NCBI GenBank assembly: GCA_913777465.1
Contig: CAJYRQ010000070.1
Coordinates: forward strand, 1 to 35,769
Length of the DNA stretch: 35,769 nucleotides
Source of the DNA: an uncultured Chryseobacterium sp.
Lineage (GTDB): Bacteria > Bacteroidota > Bacteroidia > Flavobacteriales > Weeksellaceae
Direction: 5' to 3'
Part shown: positions 4,725 through 33,057 of the stretch, one piece after another
Numbering within the stretch: position 1 is the first letter of the stretch
Layout: each line of letters starts with the position of its first letter
Notes under the pieces: generated by a model
The model's database searches: none
What the model was told of the DNA's origin: nothing
The model's input: only the letters and a program-made list of their open reading frames with translations
Translations under genes and position numbers: made by a program

Positions 4725-6209
4725 TTACCAGTTCACATACACAAACTTTTCCTTCCACGGCAGCTTTACCAAGCCGATGCCCCAGGCCAGCTTATCCAGC
4801 AGGATGTCCTGGGTTTTCCGTTCTACAGTGAGGATGTAATCATAATCGGTGACCACCAGTTTACCGGGACGCTGGAAAAACTCGTTCTGCAACAGGGCGG
4901 CGGATGAATTTTTCATCGGGCTCCAGTTGTGCCGGACGCTTTCGATAACGTTTTTAGCCTCGGTTTTATGTTTGCGCGACAGTTTGATGTGCCGGCTGAT
5001 GGGCTGGTGCGCCGGGATATTGCACAGGAATTTCTCCAAAACCATGTCGTATTCGGGGGCATTGGTCTTTCCGGTAGCGATGTAATGCAGCAAATGGGAC
5101 CCCAATTCGGGATCAAGAAGCTGTTGGGTTCTCGGATCCAGAAGTCCGCAATGCTCAAAAAAGGTTTTGATGAACGGGTGGATCAGGATAAGTCCGGCGT
5201 GTTGCACGTACTGGCCGTCATCGGGTATGGCTTCTTCAGGAATTCTTTCCTCTGATACTGCTTTTTCAAAAAGGGACTGCTCTTTCTTATAAATGGTTTC
5301 CGAAGAAGATTTTGCATTTTCCATGAGATCCGGCTGACGGATTTTCAGGATTTCTGTAATCTCCTTTTCAATTTCTTTTTCTTTAATGAAAGGAAACACT
5401 TTGGCGATGGTCTTCAGATTCTTTCGGATGGCTTCTGCCTGCAATGTTTCTGCCGCTATTAGCTTTACGATTTGCTGAACCAGATATTCCTGAAAGCTGT
5501 TTTTTGACGGATCTGAATATCCTGATACTACAGTCAGAAGTATTTGCCAGATCATCATCCGGTCGGGTGGACTGAGTCCCGGGATAGAACGGATCACCTC
5601 CGGCTCCGGGATGATTTCCTTTTTCTTATCTTTTAAAAGCACCCGGCACAATTGGGCAAGCTGAACATCCGGAAGCTGATGAATCAGGCGGTTCCGTACT
5701 TTTTGCCTGGGTAAAACGGATCTTATGATTTGCGGGAAACGGTCGGCTGAAATCAGGGTTTCAAATACCGTGGGTTCGAGGAAGTTGATTCCTTTTTTAT
5801 CAGGATTCCACCACGGCATCGATCCGTGTTCCAGAAAGTAGATAAAGGTCCGGATCATTTTTTCCGTGTTTCCGACAAGATGGGCTTTGCTGCTGTTTTC
5901 CGTTTCCTGCTCAGCACTTAAGACCGGCTCTGTAATCCCCGACAATTCTTCCTTGAAATGCTGGATGATCATATTTTTCAGTTCCGTATTCAACGCACTG
6001 TTTTTGATTTCCAGATTCAGTTCCAGTTTGGGGATCTGCAGTGTCCGGTCAGGGAATTTTCGCTCCAGCGCATCAATGTATTTTTCGATTTCCGGAAAAA
6101 CGTCCATCGACAAAAAGCTGCTGATATCGTCTTTGATATCATAGGCTTTTTGTTTGTTGCTGACGGTAATTTCAACGAAGACTTTCTGAATGATATGGTC
6201 CTGGTTCAC
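4725..6209 (-). CDS. eCIS tape-measure protein (Afp14/PVC14-like)
   Basis: In Afp-type particles this protein is thought to set the length of the inner tube and sheath. It starts NQDHIIQKVFVEI, the typical opening of the family, and ends with its conserved tail: HAGLILIHPF near residue 350, LLHYIATG, the PEYDMVLEKFLCN block, then DKLAWGIGLVKLPWKEK at the very end. The family start points to a GTG at 6207-6209, giving 494 residues. The frame stays open upstream to an ATG at 6401, but that extension overlaps the better-supported Cys-rich gene and is not family-like. A TTG about 21 bases further upstream is the other candidate. It lies in a leftward unit with the Cys-rich gene and probably the effector, opposite the main structural operon. 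Confidence 0.88.
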   Translation of the reverse strand: MNQDHIIQKVFVEITVSNKQKAYDIKDDISSFLSMDVFPEIEKYIDALERKFPDRTLQIPKLELNLEIKNSALNTELKNMIIQHFKEELSGITEPVLSAEQETENSSKAHLVGNTEKMIRTFIYFLEHGSMPWWNPDKKGINFLEPTVFETLISADRFPQIIRSVLPRQKVRNRLIHQLPDVQLAQLCRVLLKDKKKEIIPEPEVIRSIPGLSPPDRMMIWQILLTVVSGYSDPSKNSFQEYLVQQIVKLIAAETLQAEAIRKNLKTIAKVFPFIKEKEIEKEITEILKIRQPDLMENAKSSSETIYKKEQSLFEKAVSEERIPEEAIPDDGQYVQHAGLILIHPFIKTFFEHCGLLDPRTQQLLDPELGSHLLHYIATGKTNAPEYDMVLEKFLCNIPAHQPISRHIKLSRKHKTEAKNVIESVRHNWSPMKNSSAALLQNEFFQRPGKLVVTDYDYILTVERKTQDILLDKLAWGIGLVKLPWKEKFVYVNW

Positions 6210-6259
6210 GTGAAGGAGGGTTTGATTATACAAAAATGCTGGGGCCGGTGATTTTGTTT

Positions 6260-6574
6260 TTATTTGAATTCCCCTCCCCAGAAGCCGGCAGGGCAGAGGC
6301 TGGCTTTCGATTTTTGCTTTGCGCTCAGCCTGCATCCGCAGCCTCTGATAAAGCCTTCTTTCGGAGAATTTACCACTTCCATGGTCTGCGGGTTGATCCA
6401 TTTCTGGGTATCGCAGTTGTTGCCGTTTTTCAGAGGGCAGGCATTGCAGATTTCTTCCCGGATGGAATAAATCAGTTCTTCGTTTTGATCCGCCAGTCCC
6501 AGTTTTGAGCGCAGTTCGTTAAAATGGCCGCCGATGATCTCATTGCGCTTGCCGAAAATTTTCTTAATATTCAT
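6260..6574 (-). CDS. Small Cys-rich protein of eCIS/phage-like clusters
   Basis: 104 residues with the Cys pattern EEIC-x2-C-x7-C in the first half and GCGCRL ... LCP ... W in the second. Such small Cys-rich proteins recur next to tail-like clusters in Bacteroidota; their role is unknown to me, and a structural metal site is only a guess. It is the first gene of the leftward unit: a TAnnTTTG box at 6601-6608 sits 27 bases from its ATG. It ends about 50 bases before the chosen GTG of the tape-measure gene. Confidence 0.7.
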   Translation of the reverse strand: MNIKKIFGKRNEIIGGHFNELRSKLGLADQNEELIYSIREEICNACPLKNGNNCDTQKWINPQTMEVVNSPKEGFIRGCGCRLSAKQKSKASLCPAGFWGGEFK

Positions 6575-6600
6575 TGGATTAGGTTTTAAATTGATGGGGT

Positions 6601-6608
6601 CAAAATTA
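6601..6608 (-). promoter_or_regulatory. Leftward promoter -7 box (TAnnTTTG)
   Basis: On the minus strand this reads TAATTTTG, a full match to the Bacteroidota -7 consensus. It lies 27 bases from the ATG of the Cys-rich gene, matching the spacing of the rightward promoter. I do not see a clean TTTG at the -33 position, so the promoter may be weak or activator-dependent. Confidence 0.5.
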
Positions 6609-6887
6609 AAAGAAGAAAATCCTTTAAACGAACGATACGGCCCCTCCGTTCAGTCTTTGCAGTAAAGGGAAGAGCAGGGCCTGTCTGAACCGGCGGATAT
6701 CAATTTAACGTGAACCGAAATAGAAATCCGGTAATTGGCCGGGAGAGGGAGGATGGATGCCGGAAGTTTCTTTCCTATTCCAGCAAAACAGCAGCAAAAC
6801 CAAACCCGGTTGGCCTGCCTGAATCTACTGCATTCCGAAGCGGGATCGCATTTGTCTGATTTCTGGTATTTTTAGGTAATGAAATAG

Positions 6888-6917: not shown

Positions 6918-6986
6918 TTTTCAATCGGATTTAAATAAAAATAAAAATTCCATCTACTGCAAAGACAGGTTTGGGACCCTGAAATA

Positions 6987-7019: not shown

Positions 7020-7044
7020 CACCATAATACGAAAGAACAAAATT

Positions 7045-7614
7045 ATGATAAGCAAAGTATTGAACGTTTTAAGAGACAAGCTGAATACGGCAGACATTAT
7101 TGAAGATAGTGTGGTTGTAGCAGACGTTGCCAAACATGATGACGGTACTTCGGGCCTGAGCGATAAGGTAATCATTACATTGTTGAATGTTCAGGAAGAA
7201 CCCGCATTGAAAAATGCCCCGAGATACAATAAGATCATGGCAGGTGATGCAGCACTTAAATATGAAATGAGAGATCCTGCCTACATCAATCTGTATGTCA
7301 TGATCTCGGCCAACAGATCGTCTTATGATATTTCACTGGCCAGTATTTCGAAAGTGATTGAAGTTATCCAGGCCAATAATGTATTAAAATACGTAGATAT
7401 AAGTACTGACCGTACTAAAGATTTCAGTTTCAGAGCCGAAATGCATTCGGTTCCGTTTGAGCAGCTGAGCTATGTCTGGGGACTGTTGGGCGGAAAAGTA
7501 ATGCCGTCTGTCCTGTATAAAGTAAGTGTCATCAAAATTGAGGCTGCAGGTCCAGTAGATGTTGCATCAATCGATCAGGTGGATATTAAAAGCATTACGG
7601 TCGATCAGCCCTAA
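7045..7614 (+). CDS. Afp16/Pvc16-like tube terminator (DUF4255 family)
   Basis: 189 residues beginning MISKVLNVLRDKLN, the usual start of the DUF4255 / Pvc16 N-terminal family. Members cap the end of the inner tube and sheath and join the particle's distal end. The pattern NLYVMISANRSSYDISLASISKVIEVIQ and the later EQLSYVWGLLGGKVMPSVLYKV are characteristic. The frame continues upstream to 6892, but the ATG at 7045 is preferred: it matches the family start and lies 26 bases after a consensus promoter box. It is the first gene of the rightward operon, 39 bases before the first sheath gene. Confidence 0.88.
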   Translation: MISKVLNVLRDKLNTADIIEDSVVVADVAKHDDGTSGLSDKVIITLLNVQEEPALKNAPRYNKIMAGDAALKYEMRDPAYINLYVMISANRSSYDISLASISKVIEVIQANNVLKYVDISTDRTKDFSFRAEMHSVPFEQLSYVWGLLGGKVMPSVLYKVSVIKIEAAGPVDVASIDQVDIKSITVDQP

Positions 7615-13988: not shown

Positions 13989-14185
13989 TTTCTACATCAG
14001 ATCCGGGCACGTGGAAGCGTGTTCTGAAAACAAAATTTTACCAAAATCATTTTTGATAAAAGACAAAAGACTGGTCTTACAGGCGGGTCTCAGTACCCTT
14101 TATGTGTCCGGATTTTAAAATAATACACGTTAAATCATTGGTTGTTAGTAATTTATTTATTAAAAATCAATTAAAACTAAACGAA

Positions 14186-14347
14186 ATGCCAATAGAAATA
14201 AAAGAGCTTCACATTAAAATAAATGTGGACGAAAAAGCCGCCGCAACCTCAACTGCCGCCTCGATAGACGAAACGCAGATCATGCGGGCGGTCAGCGAAA
14301 GTGTGGAACAGGCCGTCAATATAGAACACCGTAAAAAAGAAAGATAA
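14186..14347 (+). CDS. DUF5908 small protein (Afp6-like)
   Basis: 53 residues: starts MPIEIKELHIKINV and ends in a charged tail EHRKKER, typical of DUF5908 proteins that sit at this place in eCIS clusters. Their role is not known to me in detail. The frame is open from 14102, but the ATG at 14186 gives the family start. The stop overlaps the next ATG by one base (TAATG at 14345-14349), so translation is probably coupled. The preceding 197 bases hold no gene or clear promoter. Confidence 0.85.
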   Translation: MPIEIKELHIKINVDEKAAATSTAASIDETQIMRAVSESVEQAVNIEHRKKER

Positions 14348-15081
14348 TGGCAGGAGCAATTACAAAATTAAATATAGTCAGTTACACGGATTCCAGCTAC
14401 AAGACTACAATAGGTAATCCTTTTTCAATTTTAATTAATCCGACAGGATATTCTTTCACCCGTAAAAATGAATTGAATCCGGATTCTGCAATAGGAGCAA
14501 GTGACAGTAATTTAAACTACATTAAAACGCTTCCTTCAGAACTTAAACTGGAATTTTTATTTGACGGAACCGGCGTTACTCAGGCAAACTCCGGGAATAA
14601 GTTAGTAAATAAGATTGCCGAAAAAGTAGGAATTAAAAAAGACGTTTTTAGAAAAAATGCTGTATCAACACAGTTAAAGGATTTTTATTCAGCTACCGGT
14701 AACTATGATGGATCCATTCACAAACCTTATAATGTAGAGCTTACCTGGGGAGAATTTCAATACAAAGGAATGCTTTCGGAATTTACAATAGACTATAAAT
14801 TATTTGATAATGAAGGTAAACCATTAAGAGCCATAGGTAAAGCAACATTTCATGGATCTGTTTCCAATGAGTTGGGAGCTCTGATGGCAAATAAAAGATC
14901 CCCTGACCTCACCCATAAAAGAACTATACAGGATGGTGACACTTTGCCTTTAATGACTAAAAGGATTTACGGAGATTCCAAGTACTACCTCGAAGTGGCC
15001 AAAGCAAACAACCTGATTAATTTCAGGCAGTTGGTGCCGGGCGATGAGCTCTACTTCCCACCCATCGAAAAAATTTCATAA
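14347..15081 (+). CDS. LysM-bearing baseplate adaptor (Afp7/gp53-like)
   Basis: 244 residues. The N-terminal part (PSELKLEFLFDGTG near residues 58-71) is that of the eCIS tube-baseplate adaptor family. A LysM domain covers about residues 188-244: TIQDGDTLPLMTKRIYGDSKYYLEVAKANNL...LVPGDELYFPPI. In Afp and in phage T4 gp53 the LysM-like domain locks the spike and tube to the baseplate rather than binding cell wall. Directly followed by the spike gene one base later. Confidence 0.88.
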   Translation: MAGAITKLNIVSYTDSSYKTTIGNPFSILINPTGYSFTRKNELNPDSAIGASDSNLNYIKTLPSELKLEFLFDGTGVTQANSGNKLVNKIAEKVGIKKDVFRKNAVSTQLKDFYSATGNYDGSIHKPYNVELTWGEFQYKGMLSEFTIDYKLFDNEGKPLRAIGKATFHGSVSNELGALMANKRSPDLTHKRTIQDGDTLPLMTKRIYGDSKYYLEVAKANNLINFRQLVPGDELYFPPIEKIS

Positions 15082-15082
15082 C

Positions 15083-16828: not shown

Positions 16829-16833
16829 TCACC

Positions 16834-17124
16834 ATGAAACCGGCAGCAAGAATTACAGATATGCATACCTGCCCGATGGTCACGGGAAATGTGCCGCATG
16901 TGGGCGGGCCTGTCATCCCGGCAGGGGAACCGACGGTGCTCATCGGCGGAAAACCGGCCGCAAGAGTAGGGGATAAAGCCGTATGCACCGGCCCGCCGGA
17001 TACCATCGCCTCAGGATCATCAAGCGTTCTGATCGGTGGGAAGCAGGCCGCAAGAATGGGAGATTCTACCGCTCACGGAGGAGTCATCACCGCAGGAGAA
17101 GCCACGGTTCTCATAGGCGGATAA
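16834..17124 (+). CDS. PAAR-repeat tip protein (Afp10-like)
   Basis: 96 residues with PAAR-like repeats: MKPAARITDMHTCP, KPAARVGDKAVCTG and KQAARMGDSTAHGG. Candidate metal ligands are H11, C13, the Cys in KAVCTG and the His in TAHGG. It should cap the spike with a sharp metal-bound point. It has no extension, so it is not itself a cargo fusion. Here PAAR precedes the gp25 gene, the reverse of the Afp order. Confidence 0.94.
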   Translation: MKPAARITDMHTCPMVTGNVPHVGGPVIPAGEPTVLIGGKPAARVGDKAVCTGPPDTIASGSSSVLIGGKQAARMGDSTAHGGVITAGEATVLIGG

Positions 17125-17177
17125 GAAAATCTTCCTGAACAGGAAACCGCTGTTTACCATCATCTGAAAATATAAAA

Positions 17178-20814: not shown

Positions 20815-20828
20815 GAAGAAATATAATT

Positions 20829-23591
20829 ATGTCAGAAAATAAGCACATCAGCATACCCAAAAATGTAGAAACCGGAGATCAGACCGATTTTCATTTTCTG
20901 CGCAGGACCGGTATCGAATATATAGAAAAACTGGGTGGAAAGCTCTGGACGGACTACAACTCCCACGATCCCGGGATCACCACGCTGGAAGTTTTAAGCT
21001 ACGCCATTACGGATCTCGGGATGAGAATGAACCTGAATACCGCAGATCTCCTGGCTTCAAAGGATGCCGGTAAAGACATCCATTCCCAATTCCTGAAAGC
21101 AACGGAGATTTTACCTTCAAAACCCCTGAATGATCTCGATTACAGAAAGCTGTTTATCGATATCAGCCTGGAGCCGGATTTTAAAAGGCCCATCCTGAAC
21201 TGCTGGCTGGTTCCCAGAACTGAAAAAATCTATGTAGACTGTAAAACAGGAACCATGGATTTCAATCCGATCGGGGAGAAGCCGCAGGACTTTACTGTAA
21301 AAGGACTTTATGACCTCTATGTAGACTATTCCGACGATCTGGATACTGAAGACAGCCGATGCAAAAGGGCTAACGTGAACTATGAGATATTGGAACGCTA
21401 CCATGCCAATAGGGGGCTCTGTGAAGACCTGGTGGAAATTAAAGAAGTGCATACCCAGAAAATTGCCGTATGTGCCAGGATCGGGCTGGTGAATAAAGCC
21501 GATGAAGAACTGGTACATGCCAAGATATTGAAAACAATTAACCATTACCTGGCGCCGGAAGTACCGTTTTACTCACTGAAACAGATGCTTGACAAAGGGC
21601 TGACGACGGATGAAATTTTTGACGGCCCGCTTCTGGAAAATGGGTTTATCGATACGGAAGAACTCAGAAAAAGCCAGCTGAGAAAGGAAGTCCGTCTTTC
21701 GGATATCATCAGCGAAATCATGAAAGTCGACGGCGTAAAAGAAATCCATGAGATTTCCATTGCCGGCTGTGACAATGCTGTGAGCCAGACCAACGACTGG
21801 CTGATCTGCATCGAAAACGGTAAAAAACCGGAACTGTGCGATTTAAGCTCGTTCAGCTACAGCAAGGGCTCCCTTCCGCTGAACATCAATGAGAAAAAAG
21901 TAGAGGAATATTTAAAAACGCTTAAAAAAGAAGAAGATGTCCTTCGTGACGATGCCAAAAAAGATAAAGAGCCGGCACTGCCGAAAGGAACGGCCCACGA
22001 CATCGGAAACTATGCCTCTATTCTTAATGAATTTCCGGATACCTACGGCGTCGGGATCTCAGGGATCATCGGAGATAAAACACCGGAGCGGGAGGCTTTG
22101 GCCAAACAGATGAAAGCCTACCTCTTGTTTTTTGATCAGATCCTGGCCGGCTACTTCAAACACCTTGAAAAAGTAAAAGAAGTATTGAGTATTGACGGCG
22201 GTTTGAAAAGGACCTATTTTACCCAGGCTCTAAAAAACATCAAAGGCTTTGAAGAGCTGGTTTCCGGTTATGATTCAGGCAGCGAAGATACACTTACCGA
22301 TGCCCTTTACAAAGAACTGGACAACAGTGTGGAAAGAAGAAACGAAGTGCTCGATCACCTGATTGCCCGTTTTGCGGAAACCTTCAGCGATTATACGTTC
22401 GTGATGAAATCGCTGTACGGAAAATCTACCGACGAGATCGTATTAAGCAATAAAGAAAATTTTTTAAAAGAATACCAATCCTTAAGCAGGGACCGCGGGT
22501 TGGGTTACAACTATACCCTGGCTTCTGAAACGGATGTCTGGAATACCAAAAATATTTCCGGGGTACAGAAGAGGATTGCCCGTCTGCTTGGAATTAAAAA
22601 TTATACCCGGAGAAGCCTTTCCCAATCTCCTGTTCTGATTATTAAAACACCCGGTATCAATGGTAAAGCCAATTATACCTGGAAAATAAAAGATGCTGAC
22701 GGCGCTATTATTCTGTCCTCCGTGAATACCTATGAGATCGAATATGCGGCTACCAAAAACCTGAACGAAGCCATCTATCAGACCATCCAGATCGATGAGG
22801 AAGACCTTGAAAATGCTTTGAACGCATTTGAAAAAGACCCCGGTAAGAACAGCCTGATCGGAAATATACAAATCCGTCTTTCCGGTGGGGGCAATTATTA
22901 CTTCGATATTTTGGATGATTCAGGAAACGTAATGGCCAACCATAAAAAAACCAATCCTTATTCAGGCGTGAAGGAGCTGATCACCGGAATTCAGAATATC
23001 GTAAGGTATTTTAAATACGATTTTACGGAAGAAGGTATTTTCCTGGTGGAGCATCTGATGCTGAAGCCGGTACTGAAGAACTATAAACTCATGGGAGGGA
23101 TCGGCTGTATGTCGGTCGGGAAAACATTTAAGGTCATGTACGATCTCAATGTTACCGGGGCGTCCTTTATGTCGTCCTGTGAGGAAGATTGCGAAGCCGA
23201 TGTTTTCGATCCTTATTCTTACCGTGTAAGCATTGTCCTTCCGGGATTTGCCTACCGTTTCCAGGATCCTGATTTCAGGCGTTATGCCGAAACGGTGATC
23301 CGCCAGGAAATTCCGGCCCATGTTTTAGCAAAAATCTGCTGGGTCGGAGACCGGATGAGCGAAGTACAGACCGCCCAAAGCGATTTGTCTGAATTTGAAA
23401 CGGCTTTCAAAACCTACCTTACCGACAAATCCAGAAACAACCTTCCTGATCTGGGAAACAGCATCAAGAATTTGCTGGCTGCGCTTGCCAAACTGAATAA
23501 TATCTACAGGCCGGGAAGACTTTTGGATTGCGCGGCAGACGATAACGACAGCCTGGACGGAAAAATAATCTTAGGACAATCCAACATATAA
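20829..23591 (+). CDS. Afp12-like baseplate protein
   Basis: 920 residues. The N-terminal block LGGKLWTDYNSHDPGITTLEVLSYAITDLGMRM (about residues 38-70) is the signature of Afp12-like baseplate components; the C-terminal third has the companion motif FLVEHLMLKP and VVLPGFAYRFQDPDFRRYAETVIRQEIPAH-type sequence. It probably pairs with the baseplate J protein to make the wedges. The frame is open from 20796, but the ATG at 20829 avoids overlap with the preceding stop and gives the conserved start MSENKHISIP. Confidence 0.87.
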   Translation: MSENKHISIPKNVETGDQTDFHFLRRTGIEYIEKLGGKLWTDYNSHDPGITTLEVLSYAITDLGMRMNLNTADLLASKDAGKDIHSQFLKATEILPSKPLNDLDYRKLFIDISLEPDFKRPILNCWLVPRTEKIYVDCKTGTMDFNPIGEKPQDFTVKGLYDLYVDYSDDLDTEDSRCKRANVNYEILERYHANRGLCEDLVEIKEVHTQKIAVCARIGLVNKADEELVHAKILKTINHYLAPEVPFYSLKQMLDKGLTTDEIFDGPLLENGFIDTEELRKSQLRKEVRLSDIISEIMKVDGVKEIHEISIAGCDNAVSQTNDWLICIENGKKPELCDLSSFSYSKGSLPLNINEKKVEEYLKTLKKEEDVLRDDAKKDKEPALPKGTAHDIGNYASILNEFPDTYGVGISGIIGDKTPEREALAKQMKAYLLFFDQILAGYFKHLEKVKEVLSIDGGLKRTYFTQALKNIKGFEELVSGYDSGSEDTLTDALYKELDNSVERRNEVLDHLIARFAETFSDYTFVMKSLYGKSTDEIVLSNKENFLKEYQSLSRDRGLGYNYTLASETDVWNTKNISGVQKRIARLLGIKNYTRRSLSQSPVLIIKTPGINGKANYTWKIKDADGAIILSSVNTYEIEYAATKNLNEAIYQTIQIDEEDLENALNAFEKDPGKNSLIGNIQIRLSGGGNYYFDILDDSGNVMANHKKTNPYSGVKELITGIQNIVRYFKYDFTEEGIFLVEHLMLKPVLKNYKLMGGIGCMSVGKTFKVMYDLNVTGASFMSSCEEDCEADVFDPYSYRVSIVLPGFAYRFQDPDFRRYAETVIRQEIPAHVLAKICWVGDRMSEVQTAQSDLSEFETAFKTYLTDKSRNNLPDLGNSIKNLLAALAKLNNIYRPGRLLDCAADDNDSLDGKIILGQSNI

Positions 23592-23603
23592 AAATTGATA
23601 ATA

Positions 23604-26600
23604 ATGAATGCTAAATTAAATAATATAACCACCCAATACAGAAAATTCAACGAAAACCAGGCGTTGACGGATGGGCAGCTGAATGAGTTCATCGACTATT
23701 TTGAAGACCAGGACCGGATGTCCAGAACCCGGCTGAGCGGGGTAGGCGTTGCGTGTGGCTTTAAACCGACTTTCGTGGATCCGGGCGTTGAACACAACGG
23801 TTCCGGGGCCGTAGATAATGATGCTGCAGGAGCGATTGTTATCACCCAGGGAACTGGGGTAACTACGGACGGCGACCTCATTACCCTGCGCCGGAAAGGA
23901 GACAGTGCCTCTGAAGCAACCATCAACTTCAGCACTGAAAATTACAGATATTACAGGGCGTACAAGGATGTGGCCTATTATGATCACTTTAAGATCAATG
24001 GAAAACAAATTCCTCTTGCAGAGTTGCTTACTAAATCTGAATATGATTCGGCAAATGATAAAAGTAATATAAAAAGCGTTCGGGAAATTGCCAACCTGAG
24101 AGATCAGGTGGTAATTCTCTATCTGGAAAGCTACTCCAACGAAGAAACTCCCTGTCAGGATGCCAACTGCGACAATACCGGTGCCGAGCAGGTATCTAAT
24201 CTGAAGGTCTTACTGGCAGATTCAAAAGTGCTTGCCGAGCTTCTTGCCAAAGGGGATGCGAAAGACAGCCTTTACAAACTTCACAACGGCTACCAGGATC
24301 TTTTCGATAATTTACCGGCCATCGAAGCCAGAAGGGTGATCCTGAATTCCGGTATTGCCACGGCAGGAAACTTAAAAACCGTATTTCAGGATGCGATCGG
24401 TGAAGTAACGGCCTTCTGTAACGGTTTCAATGCCATCGCGGAAACCTTTAACGTAAGCCCGGACCTGCGGGGAGATGAACTGATAAAAAAAGTGAAACAG
24501 GTCTTAAAACCTACTGCCTCAGGTTTAGATGATTACCAGTACCGGTATGACCTGCTGAAGGACCTGATCGATACCTATAACGAGATAAAAAGTTTACTTC
24601 TTCATCTCAACGCAGAATGCTGCCCGGACATCGCTTCTTTTCCTAAACACCTGATGCTGGGAACGGTGAACGGATCCCTGGAGCTTGGAGCGCGGACCCC
24701 TTACCGCCACGCTTTTTACCACTCGCCGGTTACCACCCGTGATGATGAGAACTATGAAAGAATTGTAATGCTGGCCAACCGCTTCGTGCAGAAAGTAAAG
24801 GCATTCCAATCGTACAGAGGGCCTGTGAAAATTACCCCTTCCCATCTTCAGGTAAGATTGGGTGATAAAGCCATTCCTTACTACTATGATGTCGATCAGT
24901 CATTGCTCACTAAATGGAATTTTGAAAAAACAAAAACCGACCGGGAAACATATAATTTAAGTTATCATACAGATAACCTGGCAGGAGACGATTATGTTCA
25001 GAACCCTTTGAATTATAATATTGATAACAATGACTTCTATAGAATCGAAGGTCACCTGTACCTCCCTTATAAAACGGCATTGCAGAATATCAATGATCTC
25101 AAAGCCCAGTATGGATTGGCTTTCGATGTTATTGCACTGGTTTTGGACAAAGGTGAGAAGACCGGGGGAGATACTCCGGTTAAAGAAAAATCAGTATCGA
25201 TTGAGGATCTTAGAAAGCAATTGGAGTCGATTTCCAGCGATATCAGCAAACAGAAGAAAGATTCGCAGAGTACTTTATTTAATATTTCCAGATTAGACGA
25301 AAAATTAAGGTTATTAAACAAAGCTGAATTTTCTAAAGAGGGCGAGGGTGTAACCGTTGTAAGAGAGGATCCTAAGAAAGATGATGTCGTAAGCGAGCTT
25401 TTAAGCGAGTTTTTAGAAAGAAAATCCGGACTGGAACATATGGCCGGGGTGGAGCCGGGCGGAACCTTCGTTTTGATCTATGCTTCGGAAACCGATAACC
25501 AGGTGCTTGCGGATTTCTCGCTGCCATATTTGTGCTGTTCTAAAAAAGAACCGGTATTCCTGGTACTACCTGCAAATCAGCTTTGTCAGAATGACGCTCC
25601 GGTTCCGATGACTATTGTTCCGTTGGACGGTCAGGTAAAAGCATTTGTAAATGGCGTTCAGGTACCTGCCGTAACGCAGTCCGGAGGGCAGAATTTCTTT
25701 AATCCTGCTTTGGTAAATTCAGCGTATTTCGGACAGACAATTACATTTACGGTAAACGATGATCCGGTTGATACACAAATGAAGGTATTCGAACAACCAA
25801 GTATCACCGTTAATGTGGGAGAGGTAACATATGGCGAAAATGTTAATAATCCGCAGGCAACAGTTACTTTCAGCATTACCGGTCACCAGCCTGGATATTC
25901 TTATGATTGGGATTTTGATGACAACTCATCGGATAATCCCGTACCGGATGTCAATGGGAATATTACGCATACATATTCATTGGGAGTAGCCGGTCAGGAA
26001 GATATATACAGGCCTTCTGTAACCGTTAAAAATAGAAATGGATGCAGTACCACCTGCCAGATTCCTCCTGTTACGTTAAAATTAGTCATTAATAAAAACA
26101 CAAGAATATTTATCTATTTCGATTCTTCCGGATCTATGGATACCACCCTGTATCCTTTGCAAAGTATGAGGGATACCCTTCTTAAGAACAAATTATTGCC
26201 ATTATATGGAAACGATTCTACGGCTTACGATGAGAAGGTAAAGGTAATTTCTAATTATACGGAAAGAACATTTGACTTTTTAAATATGGAGAATCAGCAG
26301 GCTCCGGAAGGTAATGTTATTGTTATGGTTTTCCAGGATGAAGCTAATCCAATTTACCATTCTTCATCAATTACGCCCAGAACCAGTGGATTTTCAAGCG
26401 ATATCAGAACTTTAAAAAACAGGATTGCAAACAATTTCGGTACTAATAATCCGAATTATTACAGAGGAATTATGTTCCAGGTCGACGGAGATGAAAGATT
26501 CAAACAGCTGATGATGGCTGTGGAAACAGGTTCCAATGCTGCTTATCCTGCAGAATTCAATCTTCAGTCCGAAGTATCGGCAGGAAAAGTAATATTTAAG

Positions 26601-26687
26601 TATAATGTTCCGGATGGAGATTCGCCTGCTAATTATTTAAACAGGGTTGTTGGTGCACTCCAGGAGTTGGGTTATAATATTCCTTAA
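23604..26687 (+). CDS. PKD and von Willebrand A-like surface/baseplate protein (paralogue 1)
   Basis: 1027 residues. Residues ~1-650 are shared with the next gene: NITTQYRKF at the start, EFIDYFEDQDRMSRTRLSGVG near 27-47, the CQDANCDNTGAEQ block near 185 and DIASFPKHLMLG near 350. A PKD-like domain spans ~732-815 (SYDWDFDDNSSDN...HTYS...VTVKNRNGC). Residues ~830-1027 resemble a vWA domain with the MIDAS-type motif DSSGSMD, which would bind a divalent ion and a partner. A coiled-coil-like stretch lies near 540-590. No signal peptide, as expected for a particle component. It takes the place where Afp has its fibre gene. The ATG at 23604 is chosen over the TTG nine bases earlier. Confidence 0.75.
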   Translation: MNAKLNNITTQYRKFNENQALTDGQLNEFIDYFEDQDRMSRTRLSGVGVACGFKPTFVDPGVEHNGSGAVDNDAAGAIVITQGTGVTTDGDLITLRRKGDSASEATINFSTENYRYYRAYKDVAYYDHFKINGKQIPLAELLTKSEYDSANDKSNIKSVREIANLRDQVVILYLESYSNEETPCQDANCDNTGAEQVSNLKVLLADSKVLAELLAKGDAKDSLYKLHNGYQDLFDNLPAIEARRVILNSGIATAGNLKTVFQDAIGEVTAFCNGFNAIAETFNVSPDLRGDELIKKVKQVLKPTASGLDDYQYRYDLLKDLIDTYNEIKSLLLHLNAECCPDIASFPKHLMLGTVNGSLELGARTPYRHAFYHSPVTTRDDENYERIVMLANRFVQKVKAFQSYRGPVKITPSHLQVRLGDKAIPYYYDVDQSLLTKWNFEKTKTDRETYNLSYHTDNLAGDDYVQNPLNYNIDNNDFYRIEGHLYLPYKTALQNINDLKAQYGLAFDVIALVLDKGEKTGGDTPVKEKSVSIEDLRKQLESISSDISKQKKDSQSTLFNISRLDEKLRLLNKAEFSKEGEGVTVVREDPKKDDVVSELLSEFLERKSGLEHMAGVEPGGTFVLIYASETDNQVLADFSLPYLCCSKKEPVFLVLPANQLCQNDAPVPMTIVPLDGQVKAFVNGVQVPAVTQSGGQNFFNPALVNSAYFGQTITFTVNDDPVDTQMKVFEQPSITVNVGEVTYGENVNNPQATVTFSITGHQPGYSYDWDFDDNSSDNPVPDVNGNITHTYSLGVAGQEDIYRPSVTVKNRNGCSTTCQIPPVTLKLVINKNTRIFIYFDSSGSMDTTLYPLQSMRDTLLKNKLLPLYGNDSTAYDEKVKVISNYTERTFDFLNMENQQAPEGNVIVMVFQDEANPIYHSSSITPRTSGFSSDIRTLKNRIANNFGTNNPNYYRGIMFQVDGDERFKQLMMAVETGSNAAYPAEFNLQSEVSAGKVIFKYNVPDGDSPANYLNRVVGALQELGYNIP

Positions 26688-26697
26688 TTATAGTAAC

Positions 26698-26735
26698 AAT
26701 AACTTCTCAGGTAGAAGCTTACCTGAGAAGTTATT
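26698..26735 (+). terminator. Perfect 16-bp hairpin between the two PKD genes
   Basis: AATAACTTCTCAGGTA at 26698-26713 pairs fully with 26720-26735 around the 6-base loop GAAGCT. It begins 11 bases after the stop of paralogue 1 and ends 36 bases before the start of paralogue 2. The sequence after it is TATAAAC, not a run of Ts, so it may stop only part of the transcripts or protect the upstream message. Confidence 0.65.
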
Positions 26736-26771
26736 ATAAACAGCTTAACAACATCATAAAAATGAATTATA

Positions 26772-29651
26772 ATGAATCAATTAAGTAATATAACTACCCA
26801 GTACCGCAAATTCAGTAAAGGGCAGTACATAGAGCATACCCAGTTCAACGAATTTCTGGATTTTTTTGAAGACCAGGACCGCCTGTCCAGGATAGCGCTT
26901 CAGGGTGTGGGCATTGTGTGTGGCCTTAAGCCCGGCCTTGTTTATAACAATAGGCTTTTAAGTGCCATACAGCTTTCTCAAGGCATTGCGGTAACTACAG
27001 ACGGAGATCTGCTTACATTAAATGATACAAATAAAGCAAGTGAAGATTTGTATGTAAGTGATCTGAAAACCATCGATCTGCAAAATAAAGATTACACCCA
27101 TTTTAAAGTATATGACAATTTCAAAGTTAAATATCCGGCATTCTATGATAATGGCAATCAGATTGAACTCTGGGAATTGGTTTCCGGCCGGGAAGCCGGC
27201 TCCGATTCTCAACCCATCAGTAAACTGTCGGACATGGCAGATAAATACCTTCTGTTGTATCTCGAAAGTTATGAGAAAGAAGTGAAGCCCTGCCGGGGGG
27301 TGGATTGTGATAACCACGGAATCCGGCAGATCCGGAATCTGAAAGTGTTGGTTACAACAAAAAACGGAATAGAAAATATCCTTAAAAAAGACAGGATACA
27401 GCGCCATGCTCTTTTTATAAAAGATATTTTAAAAGCTGAAAAACAGGAAAGGGTTATTATCGAAAGGCTGCTTTTAGATAAAGGAGCCGAAGCACAGATT
27501 TATATATCTGATGTAAAAGAATTATATCTCAAAGCACTGGAAAAGAATGACTACGGAGCGTCTGTTTTTAAAAAAATCAACGCCATTTCCCAGGTCATCG
27601 GCCTCCCTGTCCTGGATCATGAGAAATTTAAAAGTTTATTAAAACAGTATTTTAATCGGAATATCGGTTTTCAATATGCTTATGACCTGATAAGGGATTT
27701 GATGGATACCTACGCTGAAATTATAAATGTACTTCCCGGATCATTTACCGGATGTATGCCGGATTTAGCCTCTTTTCCCAAGCACGTCATGCTTGGAAAA
27801 TTAAGCTCGGATATTCAGTTGGATGCCTGTAGACACCGGTTTTACAACTCTCCGGTTCTGGTTGATGAAAAACAAACCCGACAGGTAAAATTCCTGATTG
27901 AACGCTTTACGCAGCAGGTGGAGAACTTTAAATATTCGGGGCTTCAGGACGGAGCCGAAATTAAAGTTACCCCGTCGCAAAAGCTAACTTCTTTGGGAGA
28001 TAAGGCCATTCCATTTTACTACAATATTACAGAAGGCTTTTTAAAAGTATGGAATTTTGATAAAACAGCAAACAGGTCATCCGGTGAAAATCGGGCATAT
28101 GATACTGCTGTATTGTCATCGGCTGGGCATATACAGAATCCTGTAGATTTTAATCTGGATAAAAATACATTTTATAATATAGAAGGACATCAGGGAATGC
28201 CCTATGAGACTGCATTTGAGCAGCTGAAAGAAATCCGGGACAGGCAGCAGCTCGGATTTGATATTATGCTTTTATCTTTCGAAGAGTTAAATAACAATAA
28301 AGATCTGTTTAAAGCTTATTTCAATGAATATGTTGATAAGCATCCCGGATTGGAGCATAAACGCGGTGTCGAGCGTGGTGGTACCTTTGTCATGTTTTAC
28401 GAGATCAATGGAAAGGAAATCAATATTATGGCAGATTTCTCGATTCCGTATACTTGTTGTACGCCAAAACCTAAAATTCAGCTGAGTTTGCCGGCATCCG
28501 TTGTTTGTTCCGAATCCGAATCCTTACCTTTTACAGTATTTCCTGTTAATGGTGTGGTAACTGCCCGCGTAGGAACTAATCAGCAAGGTGGCGTAGAATT
28601 CAGCAACGGAAGGTATTTCTTCAATCCGTCAGCCATAAGCCCGGCACTTCGTGGTCAGGATATTGCCTTCAATGTAAACGGGAAGCCTGTTAACTGCCGC
28701 ATCAAAGTGATCGCGCAGCCTGATATAAAGATTGTTGTTGATTCCGTTTTCTATCCGGAAAGTGCATCAATGGCAACAACAGTAAACTTTATTGTTTCCG
28801 GACCTGGATTCAAAGATTATAATTACCGCTGGGATTTTCTGGATAATGGAAATGCCATAACATCAAATCCGGATATAGAAGGAAATGTACACTATACATT
28901 TTATAATCTCGACCGTGCAAAGATTCCAACGATAAAAGTGAAAGTAGAAGGCGGCGGATGTATACAGGATATCACTATTGATGATTGGTATAATGCTCCT
29001 GTTGAAGAGAATAAAGTTCCTGTTGCCATAGCTAATGCATCATCTACGAATATACAGTTGCCGACAAATTCAATAGAACTGAAAGGTTCTTCCAGCTATG
29101 ATTCTGATGGAACTATAGTTTCATACTTATGGAAACAGATAGGTACTACTCCGTCAACTGCAAACATAAGTAATCCAAATATAGCTGATACAACCGCTAC
29201 GGGATTGGTAGAAGGAAATTATACATTCCAATTGACGGTTAAAGATAATCTGGGAGCCATAGCGTCAGACGAAGTTAATATTACTGTAAATAAAGCTGTT
29301 AAACTTCCTTCACTTACTGAAATCGGTAATACAACAACAGGCTCAGGATCAAATGGGTCAAGAACTCAAACTTTTAAAGTAGGACCGAATGTATCAGAAG
29401 GCAATAAATTCGAGATCGAAGTTTACAGTGTTGTTCTCACAGTAATAGCTACAGCTGCCGATACTCCAAGTACGATTGCGTTGAAACTTAAAGAACTAAT
29501 TATTAATACCAGCAGGCAACAATGGAATGCATTTGGAACTGCACCAACAGAAGCATTAGGATTTCCTCCTAAAGCATCATCGTTAGGTGATGTTCTGGAA
29601 ATATTCCTTAATTATCAGAACCAATTTTTTGGTAATGCGTCAGTTAGTTAG
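26772..29651 (+). CDS. PKD-containing fibre-like protein (paralogue 2)
   Basis: 959 residues. Residues ~1-640 match paralogue 1 (NITTQYRKFSKGQYIEHTQFNEFLDFFEDQDRLSR, CRGVDCDNHGIRQIRNLKVL, DLASFPKHVMLG). A first PKD-like domain is at ~654-735 (YNYRWDFLDNG). A second, of the SYDSDGTIVSYLWKQ type, is at ~749-840. The last ~115 residues are unlike paralogue 1: GNKFEIEVYSVVLTVIATAADTPSTIALKLKELI resembles small domains of phage tail and surface proteins. The second half is more AT-rich than the first. I infer a particle surface or target-binding protein whose tip has been exchanged. It is the last gene of the rightward structural unit and is followed by a strong terminator. Confidence 0.7.
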   Translation: MNQLSNITTQYRKFSKGQYIEHTQFNEFLDFFEDQDRLSRIALQGVGIVCGLKPGLVYNNRLLSAIQLSQGIAVTTDGDLLTLNDTNKASEDLYVSDLKTIDLQNKDYTHFKVYDNFKVKYPAFYDNGNQIELWELVSGREAGSDSQPISKLSDMADKYLLLYLESYEKEVKPCRGVDCDNHGIRQIRNLKVLVTTKNGIENILKKDRIQRHALFIKDILKAEKQERVIIERLLLDKGAEAQIYISDVKELYLKALEKNDYGASVFKKINAISQVIGLPVLDHEKFKSLLKQYFNRNIGFQYAYDLIRDLMDTYAEIINVLPGSFTGCMPDLASFPKHVMLGKLSSDIQLDACRHRFYNSPVLVDEKQTRQVKFLIERFTQQVENFKYSGLQDGAEIKVTPSQKLTSLGDKAIPFYYNITEGFLKVWNFDKTANRSSGENRAYDTAVLSSAGHIQNPVDFNLDKNTFYNIEGHQGMPYETAFEQLKEIRDRQQLGFDIMLLSFEELNNNKDLFKAYFNEYVDKHPGLEHKRGVERGGTFVMFYEINGKEINIMADFSIPYTCCTPKPKIQLSLPASVVCSESESLPFTVFPVNGVVTARVGTNQQGGVEFSNGRYFFNPSAISPALRGQDIAFNVNGKPVNCRIKVIAQPDIKIVVDSVFYPESASMATTVNFIVSGPGFKDYNYRWDFLDNGNAITSNPDIEGNVHYTFYNLDRAKIPTIKVKVEGGGCIQDITIDDWYNAPVEENKVPVAIANASSTNIQLPTNSIELKGSSSYDSDGTIVSYLWKQIGTTPSTANISNPNIADTTATGLVEGNYTFQLTVKDNLGAIASDEVNITVNKAVKLPSLTEIGNTTTGSGSNGSRTQTFKVGPNVSEGNKFEIEVYSVVLTVIATAADTPSTIALKLKELIINTSRQQWNAFGTAPTEALGFPPKASSLGDVLEIFLNYQNQFFGNASVS

Positions 29652-29750: not shown

Positions 29751-30413
29751 TCACCTTCTGTTGTTTTTCCGCCTGGTACTGATGATGTTGAATAATTTCG
29801 CAACATCATCCAGGTGGATTTCAAAGTCATCATAATATTCATTCAGGGAATGAAGGGTGATGATGCCTTTTTCCACGTCGTGTTTAATGATGCGTTTCAC
29901 CAGGATCCCTTTTTCTTTGTGGACGATCACAAAATCCCATTTGTCATAGTGCAGCTTGCTCATCCAGTAATCCTGTCGGATATTCCGGCATAAAATAATG
30001 TCGCCTTCCAGGTAGCTTTCGTAAGAGCCGTCATCCATACTGTCTCCTTTTACTTCAAAGCACATATATTCACCACGATGCTCTACATCATCGGTAAAAG
30101 GAATTACCGGCAGGCTTTCCATATATTCTTCGTCGGCAAACCCGTTCAGGTAACCGGCCTGGGCATACTGGTTCGCCAGCGGGACATACATTACCTTCAG
30201 CTCCGAAAATATGACGGGGGATGCACTGTTTTTCGTTTTGCGCTCTTGTTCTTCCAGCAGGTTCTTTACGAAATAAGCTGTTGTTTCCGGTATTTTCCGT
30301 TCGCCTTTTTCCCAGTACTGTACTGCTCGTGTTCCGACGCCAATCGCCTCTGCAATTTCTGCCTGCTTCATCCTGAGCTGCTTCCTGATCTGTTTGAATT
30401 CTAAATGAGTCAT
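29751..30413 (-). CDS. XRE-family repressor with S24 (LexA/CI-like) peptidase domain
   Basis: 220 residues. The N-terminal helix-turn-helix covers residues ~5-55 (LRMKQAEIAEAIGVGTRAVQYWEKGERKIP). The C-terminal S24 domain has the Ser in VKGDSM (S125) and the Lys in GILVKRI (K173), the catalytic pair of LexA and phage CI. A likely self-cleavage site is A86-G87 in YAQAGYL. Such proteins repress lytic genes until RecA-stimulated self-cleavage. It sits between the structural operon and the lysis genes and faces a perfect palindrome 63 bases upstream of its start. It is the likely controller of the cassette and of its own gene; whether it also acts on the structural promoter cannot be told, as I saw no second full palindrome there. 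Confidence 0.88.
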   Translation of the reverse strand: MTHLEFKQIRKQLRMKQAEIAEAIGVGTRAVQYWEKGERKIPETTAYFVKNLLEEQERKTKNSASPVIFSELKVMYVPLANQYAQAGYLNGFADEEYMESLPVIPFTDDVEHRGEYMCFEVKGDSMDDGSYESYLEGDIILCRNIRQDYWMSKLHYDKWDFVIVHKEKGILVKRIIKHDVEKGIITLHSLNEYYDDFEIHLDDVAKLFNIISTRRKNNRR

Positions 30414-30475: not shown

Positions 30476-30494
30476 ATACGAACATTGTTCGTAT
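30476..30494. promoter_or_regulatory. Palindromic operator, probable S24 repressor site
   Basis: ATACGAAC at 30476-30483 and GTTCGTAT at 30487-30494 are perfect inverted halves around ATT. The site is upstream of the repressor gene (which reads leftward) and overlaps a rightward -7 box, the expected layout for a repressor controlling itself and divergent genes. Confidence 0.75.
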
Positions 30495-30499
30495 ATTTG
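30492..30499 (+). promoter_or_regulatory. Rightward promoter -7 box overlapping the operator
   Basis: TATATTTG fits TAnnTTTG. Its first three bases are the last bases of the operator palindrome, so bound repressor would block it. At the -33 position only a weak TTTCG (30468-30472) is seen, 19 bases upstream. Confidence 0.55.
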
Positions 30500-30736
30500 T
30501 CTCGCTAATAAGAAATAACAGCACAAATATACAGAATTATATTGATAGTTTTATATTGTTTTGATAATTAATTCCTTTATTTAAGCCGGAAAGAGAATGA
30601 TAGTCAAAAAATTAAGATTAAACTTATTGCCTGATATATTTGCGGCCGGAATTTAATTTTTGTTTCAGACGGTACCCTGTAAAACAAAAAAGCAATGTGA
30701 AAAAGTAAAAAGTGCGGTTTTTAAAGCCCTGTTAAA

Positions 30737-31103: not shown

Positions 31104-31262
31104 ATGAAACGAAGTAAAGAATTAACAGAAAAAAGAAAAGATTTTGTCAACGATTATGTAAAACGCAATCAGGACAAACAGATGAAAGTCATTGTAACGG
31201 AACTTACGGAAATGCTGTTTTTATCGGAAAGGACAATCTATAACATCATTGTCCAGGATTAG
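31104..31262 (+). CDS. Small helix-turn-helix-like protein, 52 residues
   Basis: A short, very basic and charged protein, starting MKRSKELTEKRKDFVNDYVKR. The end, VTELTEMLFLSERTIYNIIVQD, reads like the second half of a helix-turn-helix in which LSERTIYNII would be the recognition helix. Such minimal HTH proteins occur near tail-like clusters and prophages in Bacteroidota. A short A-rich leader (AAAGAAA) precedes the ATG. Probable small DNA-binding regulator between repressor and lysis genes. Confidence 0.6.
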   Translation: MKRSKELTEKRKDFVNDYVKRNQDKQMKVIVTELTEMLFLSERTIYNIIVQD

Positions 31263-31667: not shown

Positions 31668-31812
31668 ATTTGCCGTTATCTTACGAAGGTAATCACCGTT
31701 TTTCTTTTGGTCCGTTGCTGTTAGGTAAAGACTTAAACATCTCCTGCTCACTAAGACAGGAACATCGATCCGATTGGGTAAAAACAATAACCACCATATC
31801 CATTTTATAACC

Positions 31813-31971
31813 ATGAAAAAGAAAAAAAACAAAAAGAACAAAGAAAAACTGCAAAAGCCGCGTAAAGACATCAGCGAACTGATCGACGAGCTTGCCTATA
31901 TCAACGAAGGTGAAAATATCCTGAACAGCAAAAAATTCTTAGAAGGTCTGTACATGCTGGAGCATGAATGA
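31813..31971 (+). CDS. Small Lys-rich hypothetical protein, 52 residues
   Basis: Starts with a Lys-rich stretch of about 18 residues (MKKKKNKKNKEKLQKPRK), followed by an acidic, helix-prone half: ISELIDELAYINEGENILNSKKFLEGLYMLEHE. Unknown family. It is preceded by a TAAATTTG box at 31665-31672 and lies 42 bases before the holin-like gene, so it probably belongs to the lysis transcript. The frame is open further upstream, but this ATG fits the start of the charged segment. Confidence 0.5.
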   Translation: MKKKKNKKNKEKLQKPRKDISELIDELAYINEGENILNSKKFLEGLYMLEHE

Positions 31972-32012
31972 ATCTCTGAAAATGCCTGAATTTTTTAAAT
32001 ATATAGGAAAGA

Positions 32013-32390
32013 ATGAGTTTGGATAGTGTAAAAGCCTTATTAATCGGAACTGCCATTGCATTCTCCGGAGGATTATTAAGGGTATTGATTTCAATACAGA
32101 ATAAAGAAAAGAAACAGCTCTGGGAACACTTCGTTACGTTGGCCATCGTAATGATCGTCGGTTTCACCATGAGCTACGTCATGAGCAGGGCCGACCTTCA
32201 TGACAAATGGTACTCCACAGGCATATTGTTTGTACTCGGCTATGGCTACGACAAATTCCTGAAGATGATTACCACCAATCTGCCGGAATGGATCGAGAGA
32301 GCGGTAAGCCTCTACATCGAAGGCCGGTATGGCGTGAAGACCACCAGGCCGGCTGCCGGTGAGGAAGAAAAGAAAGACGATCCCGTTTAA
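32013..32390 (+). CDS. Holin-like membrane protein
   Basis: 125 residues with two to three hydrophobic segments: ~6-26 (VKALLIGTAIAFSGGLLRVL), ~40-58 (FVTLAIVMIVGFTMSYVM) and ~68-82 (STGILFVLGYGYDKF), followed by a charged, Lys/Glu-rich tail. Size, topology and the tight link to an amidase gene suggest a phage holin that makes inner-membrane holes so the amidase can reach the wall. Sequence alone does not name a holin family. The amidase ATG is 22 bases after its stop. Confidence 0.7.
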   Translation: MSLDSVKALLIGTAIAFSGGLLRVLISIQNKEKKQLWEHFVTLAIVMIVGFTMSYVMSRADLHDKWYSTGILFVLGYGYDKFLKMITTNLPEWIERAVSLYIEGRYGVKTTRPAAGEEEKKDDPV

Positions 32391-32412
32391 AATAAAATTA
32401 ATAATAAAAATC

Positions 32413-33057
32413 ATGAATATCATCAGTCACAGTTTTCCTGAAAACCAGTATTACCGGGAAGTTACCGCAAAGAAAGGAATCGTGCTGCACCATACGGTGT
32501 CGGGAGATTCGGTGGAAGGAGACATCAGCTGGTGGAAATCCACAGCAGAACGGGTGGCGACGCCCATCATCATTGCCCGGGATGGCGGGATCCATCAGCT
32601 GTTTTCATCTAAGTACTGGGCGCATCATCTCGGAATTAAAAAAGCGCATTTCGCACAATTCGGGCTTCCTGAAACGAATACCCAGCGAAATAAGGAATTC
32701 ATCGGCGTCGAGCTCGACAGCTGGGGTGGCCTGACCTTAAAAAATTCAAAGTATTACTCGTTCTCCGGGCAGGAAGTGGCTGCAAAGAATGTAGTGAAAT
32801 ATGAAAAAGAATTCAGGGGTTACCGGTTTTACGAAAAGTATACCGATGCCCAGATCGCTTCCCTGAAAGAACTTCTGGTCCACTGGGGAAAGCAGTACGG
32901 CATCTCCCTGAAATACAAAGGGAATGTCATGTTTGAATTTAATAAAAGGGCGTTGGGCGGCGAAAGCGGCATCTGGGCGCACGTCTCCTTCAGACCCGAC
33001 AAATCGGATGTCCACCCGCAGCCGGAACTGATCCGCATGCTGGAATCGCTGGCATAA
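32413..33057 (+). CDS. N-acetylmuramoyl-L-alanine amidase (endolysin-like)
   Basis: 214 residues of the amidase_2 / PGRP fold, which cuts the amide bond between muramic acid and the stem peptide of peptidoglycan. Visible blocks: GIVLHHTVSGD near residues 20-30 (metal-binding His), WWKSTAERVATPIIIARDGGIHQLFSSKYWAHHLG near 41-76, EFIGVELDSWG near 97-107 and the C-terminal VSFRPDKSDVHP, with a late His and Asp. There is no signal peptide, so export would depend on the holin. The frame is open from 32359, but the ATG at 32413 avoids overlapping the holin gene. Confidence 0.88.
   Translation: MNIISHSFPENQYYREVTAKKGIVLHHTVSGDSVEGDISWWKSTAERVATPIIIARDGGIHQLFSSKYWAHHLGIKKAHFAQFGLPETNTQRNKEFIGVELDSWGGLTLKNSKYYSFSGQEVAAKNVVKYEKEFRGYRFYEKYTDAQIASLKELLVHWGKQYGISLKYKGNVMFEFNKRALGGESGIWAHVSFRPDKSDVHPQPELIRMLESLA

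Follow-up and report, generated by a model that had tools for sequence, protein, structure and literature searches.

Results

A contractile injection cluster with a repressor and putative lysis genes inside it

The window analysed here is an entire contig (C70; 35,769 nucleotides) of a Chryseobacterium-group draft genome of 4.4 Mb in 109 contigs. By Pfam it holds a near-complete gene cluster for an extracellular contractile injection system (eCIS), with the hallmark set of sheath, tube, spike, PAAR, gp25, baseplate J, CIS tape measure and Pvc16-like proteins complete, and on this gene content the cluster, which continues past the contig end, is an AFP/PVC-type eCIS. The initial annotation had read the eCIS structural genes as followed by an S24 repressor with a palindromic operator, a holin-like protein and an amidase, in that order, and Pfam and the operator scan agree. 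It had also described this module as adjoining the eCIS; the gene order is right, but the switch and lysis genes sit within the cluster rather than beside it. The features of the module are as follows.

29751..30413, minus strand: CI/LexA-type XRE-S24 repressor with A86-G87 site, Ser125 and Lys173 (PF00717, PF01381)
30477..30493, no strand: putative palindromic operator TACGAACATTGTTCGTA, a perfect palindrome
30492..30499, plus strand: rightward -7 box TATATTTG, overlapping the operator; kept in 21 of 21 sequences
30524..30531, minus strand: leftward -7 box, opposed to the rightward one, for the promoter of the repressor itself; kept in 21 of 21 sequences
31104..31262, plus strand: conserved 52-aa protein, candidate activator with a helix-turn-helix (HTH)-like C-terminal motif seen by eye; one copy in each of 47 of 148 genomes
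31813..31971, plus strand: lysine-rich small open reading frame (ORF) of 52 aa, conserved in the leader alignment
32013..32390, plus strand: holin-like membrane protein, 125 aa, with two clear hydrophobic segments (PF16083 E 0.0023; phrog_785 E 0.00076)
32413..33057, plus strand: Amidase_2 endolysin, 214 aa (E 2.6e-11)

The module marks one eCIS type within the genus

Across an even sample of 148 genomes of the genus, the S24 ortholog, the 52-aa gene and the holin gene occur in exactly the same 47 genomes and in the same order. The S24 count comprises 46 orthologs of at least 85% identity over their full length plus that of G062, in which the gene is split; a looser cut-off gives 52 genomes, the extra five matching at 32-43% and not being counted. 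The S24 gene is divergent and the 52-aa gene lies upstream of the holin gene on the holin's strand in 47 of 47, and the gap between S24 and holin measures 1299-1696 bp in 46 (the split gene of G062 set aside). Tube genes of the window's type (about 78-100% identical) are present in 46 of these 47 genomes, mostly on the same contig and about 18-20 kb from the module, with tube 1 on another contig in G001, G024, G041 and G116; the relevant contig of G056 begins inside the tube genes and retains tube 3 only. The assembly of G039 is poor (87% complete, 410 contigs); it has this eCIS on a 6-kb contig, and the module was not found. The window contig stops before the AAA+ ATPase of the eCIS cluster, which was identified in a relative (G019; PF00004 E 1.9e-27) and is reached in 11 of 20 right-hand loci, the remainder being mostly too short; in all 11 the module lies between the fibre genes and the ATPase.

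A second tube type (59-62% identity) occurs without the S24 gene, the 52-aa gene or the holin gene in G064, G071, G087, G093, G094, G103, G104, G109 and G142, and still other tubes (42-50%) occur in G006, G008, G113 and G114. Five genomes have both tube types, with the second type at a second locus (G026, G073, G077, G096 and G135). Each of five second-type loci that were read (G071, G093, G104, G142 and the second locus of G073) is an eCIS by at least 10 gene matches, and within about 20 kb none of the five has a match to the S24 protein, the 52-aa gene, the holin, the amidase, or the GH24 lysozyme and spanin described below. Outside these regions, a broken GH24-like match was found in G093 and a weak match to the amidase in G094.

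Among named strains, the nearest relatives of the repressor gene (98%) are in Chryseobacterium sp. SN22 and C. hagamense; of the 36 named loci found, 35 belong to Chryseobacterium. In a wider search with the repressor through 395 genomes of the order, 16 reached the E 1e-40 threshold; 14 of these belong to the genus, and the other two match at 49-56% identity. One locus from Flavobacterium supellecticarium (L122) has the S24 gene, 52-aa gene, holin and amidase in the same order (holin then amidase, 79%), together with PKD fibre-like genes, and this arrangement implies that the module has either crossed genera or predates the genus.

A CI/LexA-type repressor and a putative operator over the rightward promoter

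The repressor gene lies 100 bp past the last PKD gene and encodes HTH_3 and Peptidase_S24 domains. An alignment of 14 repressors, relatives of 49-57% identity included, shows no variation at Ala86-Gly87, Ser125 or Lys173, and the Ala-Gly, Ser and Lys residues are present in all 28 loci parsed by script (the lysine of L023 was read by eye). The script did not parse 2 of 30 loci, L011 and L012, whose genomes are covered by L094 (on L011's contig) in the 14-sequence alignment and by L041 (from L012's genome) among the 21 leaders. A structural model of the repressor, of middling confidence (mean pLDDT 65.7), retrieved the lambda repressor 3bdn first in Foldseek (E 2e-5), followed by a lambda-186 hybrid and LexA; a solved-structure search with the S24 sequence or profile gave HTH-domain and likely chance matches and no full CI or LexA. 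With its HTH and S24 domains and its Ala-Gly, Ser and Lys residues, the protein thus appears to fall in the CI/LexA self-cleaving class, cleavage itself being predicted. None of four proteins matched a defence-system library.

Allowing up to 3 mismatches, the operator sequence TACGAACATTGTTCGTA matches nowhere else in the window (0.14 matches expected), and in the draft genome it has one perfect match and four other sites with 3 mismatches. Operator CGAACANTGTTCGTATATTTG plus -7 box recurs in 35 of the 36 named loci, the exception being L122 with an imperfect palindrome. Exactly two boxes of the form TAnnTTTG, which we take to be the Bacteroidota -7 consensus, are conserved in the S24-holin interval of all 21 sequences compared, one rightward and one leftward. 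Any further rightward -7 box ahead of the holin occurs in at most 3 of the 21. Because the operator overlaps the rightward -7 box, a repressor bound to the palindrome at 30477-30493 would cover the rightward promoter and lie just downstream of its own start.

The rightward promoter would serve the 52-aa gene, the second small ORF and the holin gene. Variation in the 52-aa gene at codon positions 1, 2 and 3 (0.053, 0.029 and 0.24 over 36 loci) is concentrated at position 3, and it is therefore a real gene. A Pfam search at E 0.1 found no match for its product, which on this test is thus not PrtN. The HTH label is weakly founded, coming from a motif recognised by eye, with an AlphaFold model that consists of one long helix and weak PDB profile matches (best E 0.052). 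Upstream of this gene, a possible hairpin was seen at 30986-31010 and in the relatives' leaders, with arms AGGCT/AGCCT in the window and AAAGAC/GTCTTT in relatives, changes that apparently keep the pairing.

Unrelated endolysins accompany a constant holin

The amidase of the window probably starts at ATG 32413 rather than GTG 32359. An amidase of this type follows the holin in only 4 of the 47 genomes (G000, G013, G019 and G033), and the amidase was rejected on that count as the general lysis enzyme of these clusters; further matches are one in G098 (56%, without the holin) and four at 31-33%. Most relatives have instead a GH24 phage lysozyme (PF00959 E 5.1e-30; phrog_7 E 4.2e-42), preceded by the gene for a lipoprotein with a C-terminal membrane segment. 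A u-spanin has an N-terminal lipobox and a C-terminal membrane segment; the relatives' lipoprotein has this layout, and no family match backs the label. Of the 47 genomes, 39 (a set that excludes the window's own) have GH24 and u-spanin-like genes past the holin on the same contig and strand, 9.8-45.2 kb away; among them are G117, with an 82-residue GH24 match only, and G001, with a GH24 gene cut by the contig end. Two further genomes (G041 and G116) have them on other contigs. All 7 right-hand loci with the three genes ATPase, spanin and GH24 show them in this order.

G014 apart, exceptions to the GH24 rule have a peptidoglycan-hydrolase domain of another kind. Amidase_2 is found in 4 of the 6 genomes without GH24 and in 0 of the 41 with it. 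G052 lacks GH24 and has, just before the ATPase, an Amidase_3 enzyme (E 2.6e-16) and another protein with a lipobox and a membrane segment, recognised by eye. In G117 the spanin is kept and adjoins a GH19-like endolysin (phrog_181 E 6.2e-50; Pfam GH19 E 0.023, below cut-off). Four different peptidoglycan hydrolases, Amidase_2 in the window and GH24, Amidase_3 and GH19-like enzymes in relatives, thus seem to fill one role, and this exchange of unrelated endolysins beside a constant holin is the best evidence for a lysis function. These counts are of genomes rather than events, and the amidase genomes are close kin.

The phage-like character of these genes raises the question of whether the repressor and holin might be remnants of a prophage or other mobile element that lies beside the eCIS by chance and has no role in it. 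The spanin-GH24 pair does occur in a prophage-like region (L081), which has a tape measure gene (PF20155 E 1.8e-28), a holin gene just before the pair (phrog_14914 E 7.9e-47) and a lysozyme 97% identical. IMG/VR contigs hold S24 and holin relatives at 65-66%, one of them a 66% holin relative on a 47.9-kb contig whose neighbours look phage-like by eye. A chance remnant would nevertheless have to account for the occurrence of the S24 gene, 52-aa gene, holin and window tube type in the same 47 genomes (46 with tube 1 or 2, G056 with tube 3 only), for the position of the module between fibre genes and ATPase, and for its absence from the second eCIS type. We reject this explanation on the co-occurrence and consider it very improbable. 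Capsid, terminase and integrase genes were absent among 30 scanned window ORFs of the 104 listed, several of which overlap and are improbable as genes (the ORF from 33366 lay outside the scan), and the window scan found no RNA family and no tRNA. As a separate observation, inspection of locus L127 (G000:C101) by eye showed a GH19-like endolysin gene of the same genome close to genes for UmuD-like and UmuC-like proteins, perhaps the lysis end of a prophage.

The structural promoters carry a different box

The structural genes and the two promoters between the tape measure and Pvc16-like genes are listed below; the Pvc16-like gene probably starts at ATG 7042 rather than at 6892.

4725..6401, minus strand: eCIS tape measure, CIS_TMP (PF19268 E 3.4e-106)
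6651..6666, minus strand: promoter box TTTACTGCAAAGACTG of the tape-measure promoter, with a -7 box 56 nt on
6953..6968, plus strand: promoter box TACTGCAAAGACAG of the structural operon, with -7 box TATGTTTG 57 nt on
7042..7614, plus strand: Pvc16-like protein (PF14065 E 6.7e-27), start set by comparison with relatives
7654-9348, 9429-11147 and 11646-13043, plus strand: three sheath genes (PF17482, PF04984)
11190-11627, plus strand: tube gene between sheath genes (PF06841)
13087-13518 and 13521-13988, plus strand: two further tube genes (PF06841)
14102..17665, plus strand: DUF5908, CIS_tube, spike (Phage_GPD/base_V), PAAR tip and gp25 baseplate genes (Pfam)
17755..23591, plus strand: baseplate J protein (PF04865) and a 931-aa protein that may belong to the baseplate (weak TIGR02243 match, E 0.0018, well short of the cut-off)
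23595..29651, plus strand: two PKD-containing proteins, probable fibres (Pfam; PKD matches of the first below cut-off)

The two divergent promoters have a common box, TTTACTGCAAAGACWG, whose first bases vary slightly. In a comparison of 20 left-hand loci with the window, 20 of 21 sequences have its 12-base core without mismatch at both promoters, L074 having one mismatch on one side. Box and -7 box are separated by 57 nt at one promoter in 21 of 21 sequences; at the opposite promoter the spacing is 56-57 nt in 20 of 20 (L074 unmatched), and the intervening sequence differs. Of the 47 genomes that have the 52-aa gene, 44 show an exact divergent pair within 1 kb (boxes 264-737 bp apart), against 0 of the 101 without the gene; the three lacking a pair are G033 and G041, each with one exact box on an eCIS contig, and G056 with none. 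Stray hits to the box occur in 10 of the 101, and the right-hand loci lack it except for one hit with 1 mismatch in L035.

The box looks like an activator site. The 52-aa gene shares its distribution and would be transcribed from the repressed promoter, which makes the gene's product the natural candidate for the activator, but the S24 gene shares the distribution too. The initial annotation had suggested that the repressor possibly controls particle production, and in its direct form this was not borne out: the palindrome does not recur within 3 mismatches in the window, and we rejected it as a regulator of the structural promoters, which have another box. One could still suppose, from the co-occurrence of the structural genes and the repressor, that the repressor also acts on them directly through sites unlike the palindrome, but the fixed spacing of a different box at those promoters makes this improbable. 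If particle production is linked to the repressor, the link is probably relayed indirectly.

Cargo-like neighbours and the possibility of export

Two further regions of the window encode candidate cargo.

33366..35769, plus strand: first part of a large candidate cargo protein (1205-1394 aa in relatives), truncated where the contig ends
762..4382, minus strand: 1206-aa protein, candidate cargo, with N-terminal 680-1049 residues matched in relatives
142..762, minus strand: 206-aa protein after the 1206-aa gene, with no Pfam match over cut-off

The large protein that follows the holin or amidase has a conserved N-terminal part and a variable C-terminus: among 16 sequences of the family, identity averages 40-63% across 1100 aligned columns and 14-25% past column 1200. 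Exchangeable cargo has this appearance, and the protein is therefore a candidate cargo. It is encoded by the next plus-strand ORF after the holin or amidase in 20 of 21 sequences (20 right-hand loci of 7-20 kb and the window; in L036 a 72-aa ORF comes first). This constancy, together with that of the holin, would suit a holin-like protein that helps to export the large neighbour or another enzyme without lysing the producer, the particles leaving by some other route. Export of this kind would leave unexplained the endolysin and u-spanin set of most relatives and the phage-style exchange of endolysins, and it seems to us a poor prospect.

At the other end of the window, the N-terminal 680-1049 residues of the 1206-aa protein were matched in 5 of 20 relatives' left flanks, and its last part once, weakly (33%). 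The 1206-aa and 206-aa genes look like a second cargo gene with a partner, at a contig end of locally low GC (33%).

Discussion

The reading that we favor, at a probability of about 0.66, is that of an AFP/PVC-type eCIS whose gene cluster incorporates a lysogeny-style switch together with a lysis module. This reading rests on gene content, order, linkage, operator-promoter overlap, cleavage residues and endolysin exchange; DNA binding, the RecA trigger and lysis are what we infer from them. That the repressor controls lysis, as the initial annotation proposed, is well supported at the sequence level by conservation, gene order, the overlap of operator and promoter and the exchange of endolysins.

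With the repressor present, the leftward-transcribed S24 protein would sit on the palindrome and keep the rightward promoter closed. DNA damage would lead through RecA filaments to self-cleavage of the repressor at Ala86-Gly87, and the rightward transcript released in this way would supply the 52-aa protein, the second small ORF and the holin. In what is the weakest step of the scheme, the 52-aa protein would perhaps then open the divergent box promoters, and particles would assemble. The holin would open the inner membrane, the endolysin (Amidase_2 here; GH24, GH19-like or Amidase_3 elsewhere) would cut the wall, and in most relatives a u-spanin would disrupt the outer membrane, so that particles leave a dying subset of the cells. 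The more specific proposal of a two-step DNA-damage relay, in which a CI-like repressor gates a transcript for both holin and 52-aa activator and the activator in turn fires the divergent structural promoters through the box at its fixed distance, is one we put forward tentatively and hold more doubtful than not; assembly and suicide lysis would then follow from one cleavage event, through parts unrelated to PrtN.

Several observations weigh against the favored reading. The structural promoters lack the operator, the family matches of the holin are weak and below curated cut-offs, and the G014 assembly, whose contig ends early, has neither amidase nor GH24. Endolysin exchange counts few events, because the genomes without GH24 mostly belong to one clade. 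No u-spanin homolog was found in the window's clade, nor did a layout scan find one there, a scan that flagged 5 of 7 known spanin genes and missed that of G052. Finally, in the draft genome only the window repressor and a UmuD-like protein pass the Pfam cut-off for S24 (two relatives are weaker), so that a LexA-type SOS response is not evident; the UmuD-like protein is presumably such, lying beside what we take to be a UmuC-like one.

This last point bears on the trigger. Lysis may be real and yet respond to something other than DNA damage, with the S24 protein sensing another signal or switching stochastically. Such a trigger would fit a genome with no LexA-like protein over cut-off, and SOS-independent pyocin production reportedly exists (PMC8609362). 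Some eCIS loci are also tied to LuxR-type regulators, according to the available part of PMC8213781. Induction by DNA damage is predicted from the cleavage residues and the fold, and the invariance of the Ala-Gly site and Ser/Lys dyad and the fold match to lambda CI and LexA make us regard a different trigger as unlikely.

In 47 genomes of one genus, this eCIS has a common repressor, operator, small gene and holin, and in most an exchangeable endolysin slot, a module that tells it from the genus's second eCIS type. Since the titles of 34 of the 36 named records do not label them as metagenome-assembled genomes, many of the loci come from cultured strains, and induction and release are open to single-gene study.

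Comparison with known systems

Lambda CI and LexA combine an HTH with an S24 domain, have the Ala-Gly site, serine and lysine, and act at operators that overlap promoters. The switch described here has the same domains and residues and a putative operator over a promoter, and differs in its single palindrome, its Bacteroidota -7 boxes and its setting in an injection-machine cluster.

Among eCIS, one comparison is with that of Algoriphagus machipongonensis, which belongs to the Bacteroidota. Its AlgoCIS was purified from culture supernatant, as the available text of PMC8894135 reports; it is likewise a Bacteroidota eCIS, but the words "holin", "repressor" and "mitomycin" are absent from the main text of that paper. 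As far as the available parts of PMC8213781, PMC12961389 and PMC8894135 go, AFP/PVC-type eCIS are mostly said to be released "by lysis", and specific lysis genes are named for Serratia Afp only. The Serratia antifeeding prophage (Afp) is described with a predicted endopeptidase-holin-lysozyme cassette in the part of PMC12961389 available. It resembles the present cluster as a true eCIS with a predicted lysis cassette; unlike that cassette, which lies upstream, the lysis genes here are inside the cluster and split, and the window has a CI-type repressor of which the same part of that description makes no mention. For regulation, Geller et al. describe GerE, which is of the LuxR type, as the first conserved regulator of eCIS (PMC8213781, available portion). 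A literature search that left out preprints and most subscription papers found no paper pairing "contractile injection system" with "Chryseobacterium", and among the matches listed for eCIS, LexA and holin no title concerned such a switch.

A close parallel is with R-type pyocin (tailocin) clusters, which have PrtR/PrtN and holin-lysin-spanin genes and a suspected repressor-activator relay, according to the accessible part of PMC10598620. A CI-type repressor, lysis genes within the cluster and a suspected relay are common to both. Here, unlike there, the particle is of the AFP/PVC type, with an ATPase and cargo-like proteins, and belongs to Bacteroidota; the divergent structural promoters have boxes of their own, and endolysin and spanin lie far from the holin in most relatives. 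On our analysis, then, the cluster would work like the PrtR/PrtN pyocin clusters, yet with an AFP/PVC-type particle and no PrtN match it is not one of them.

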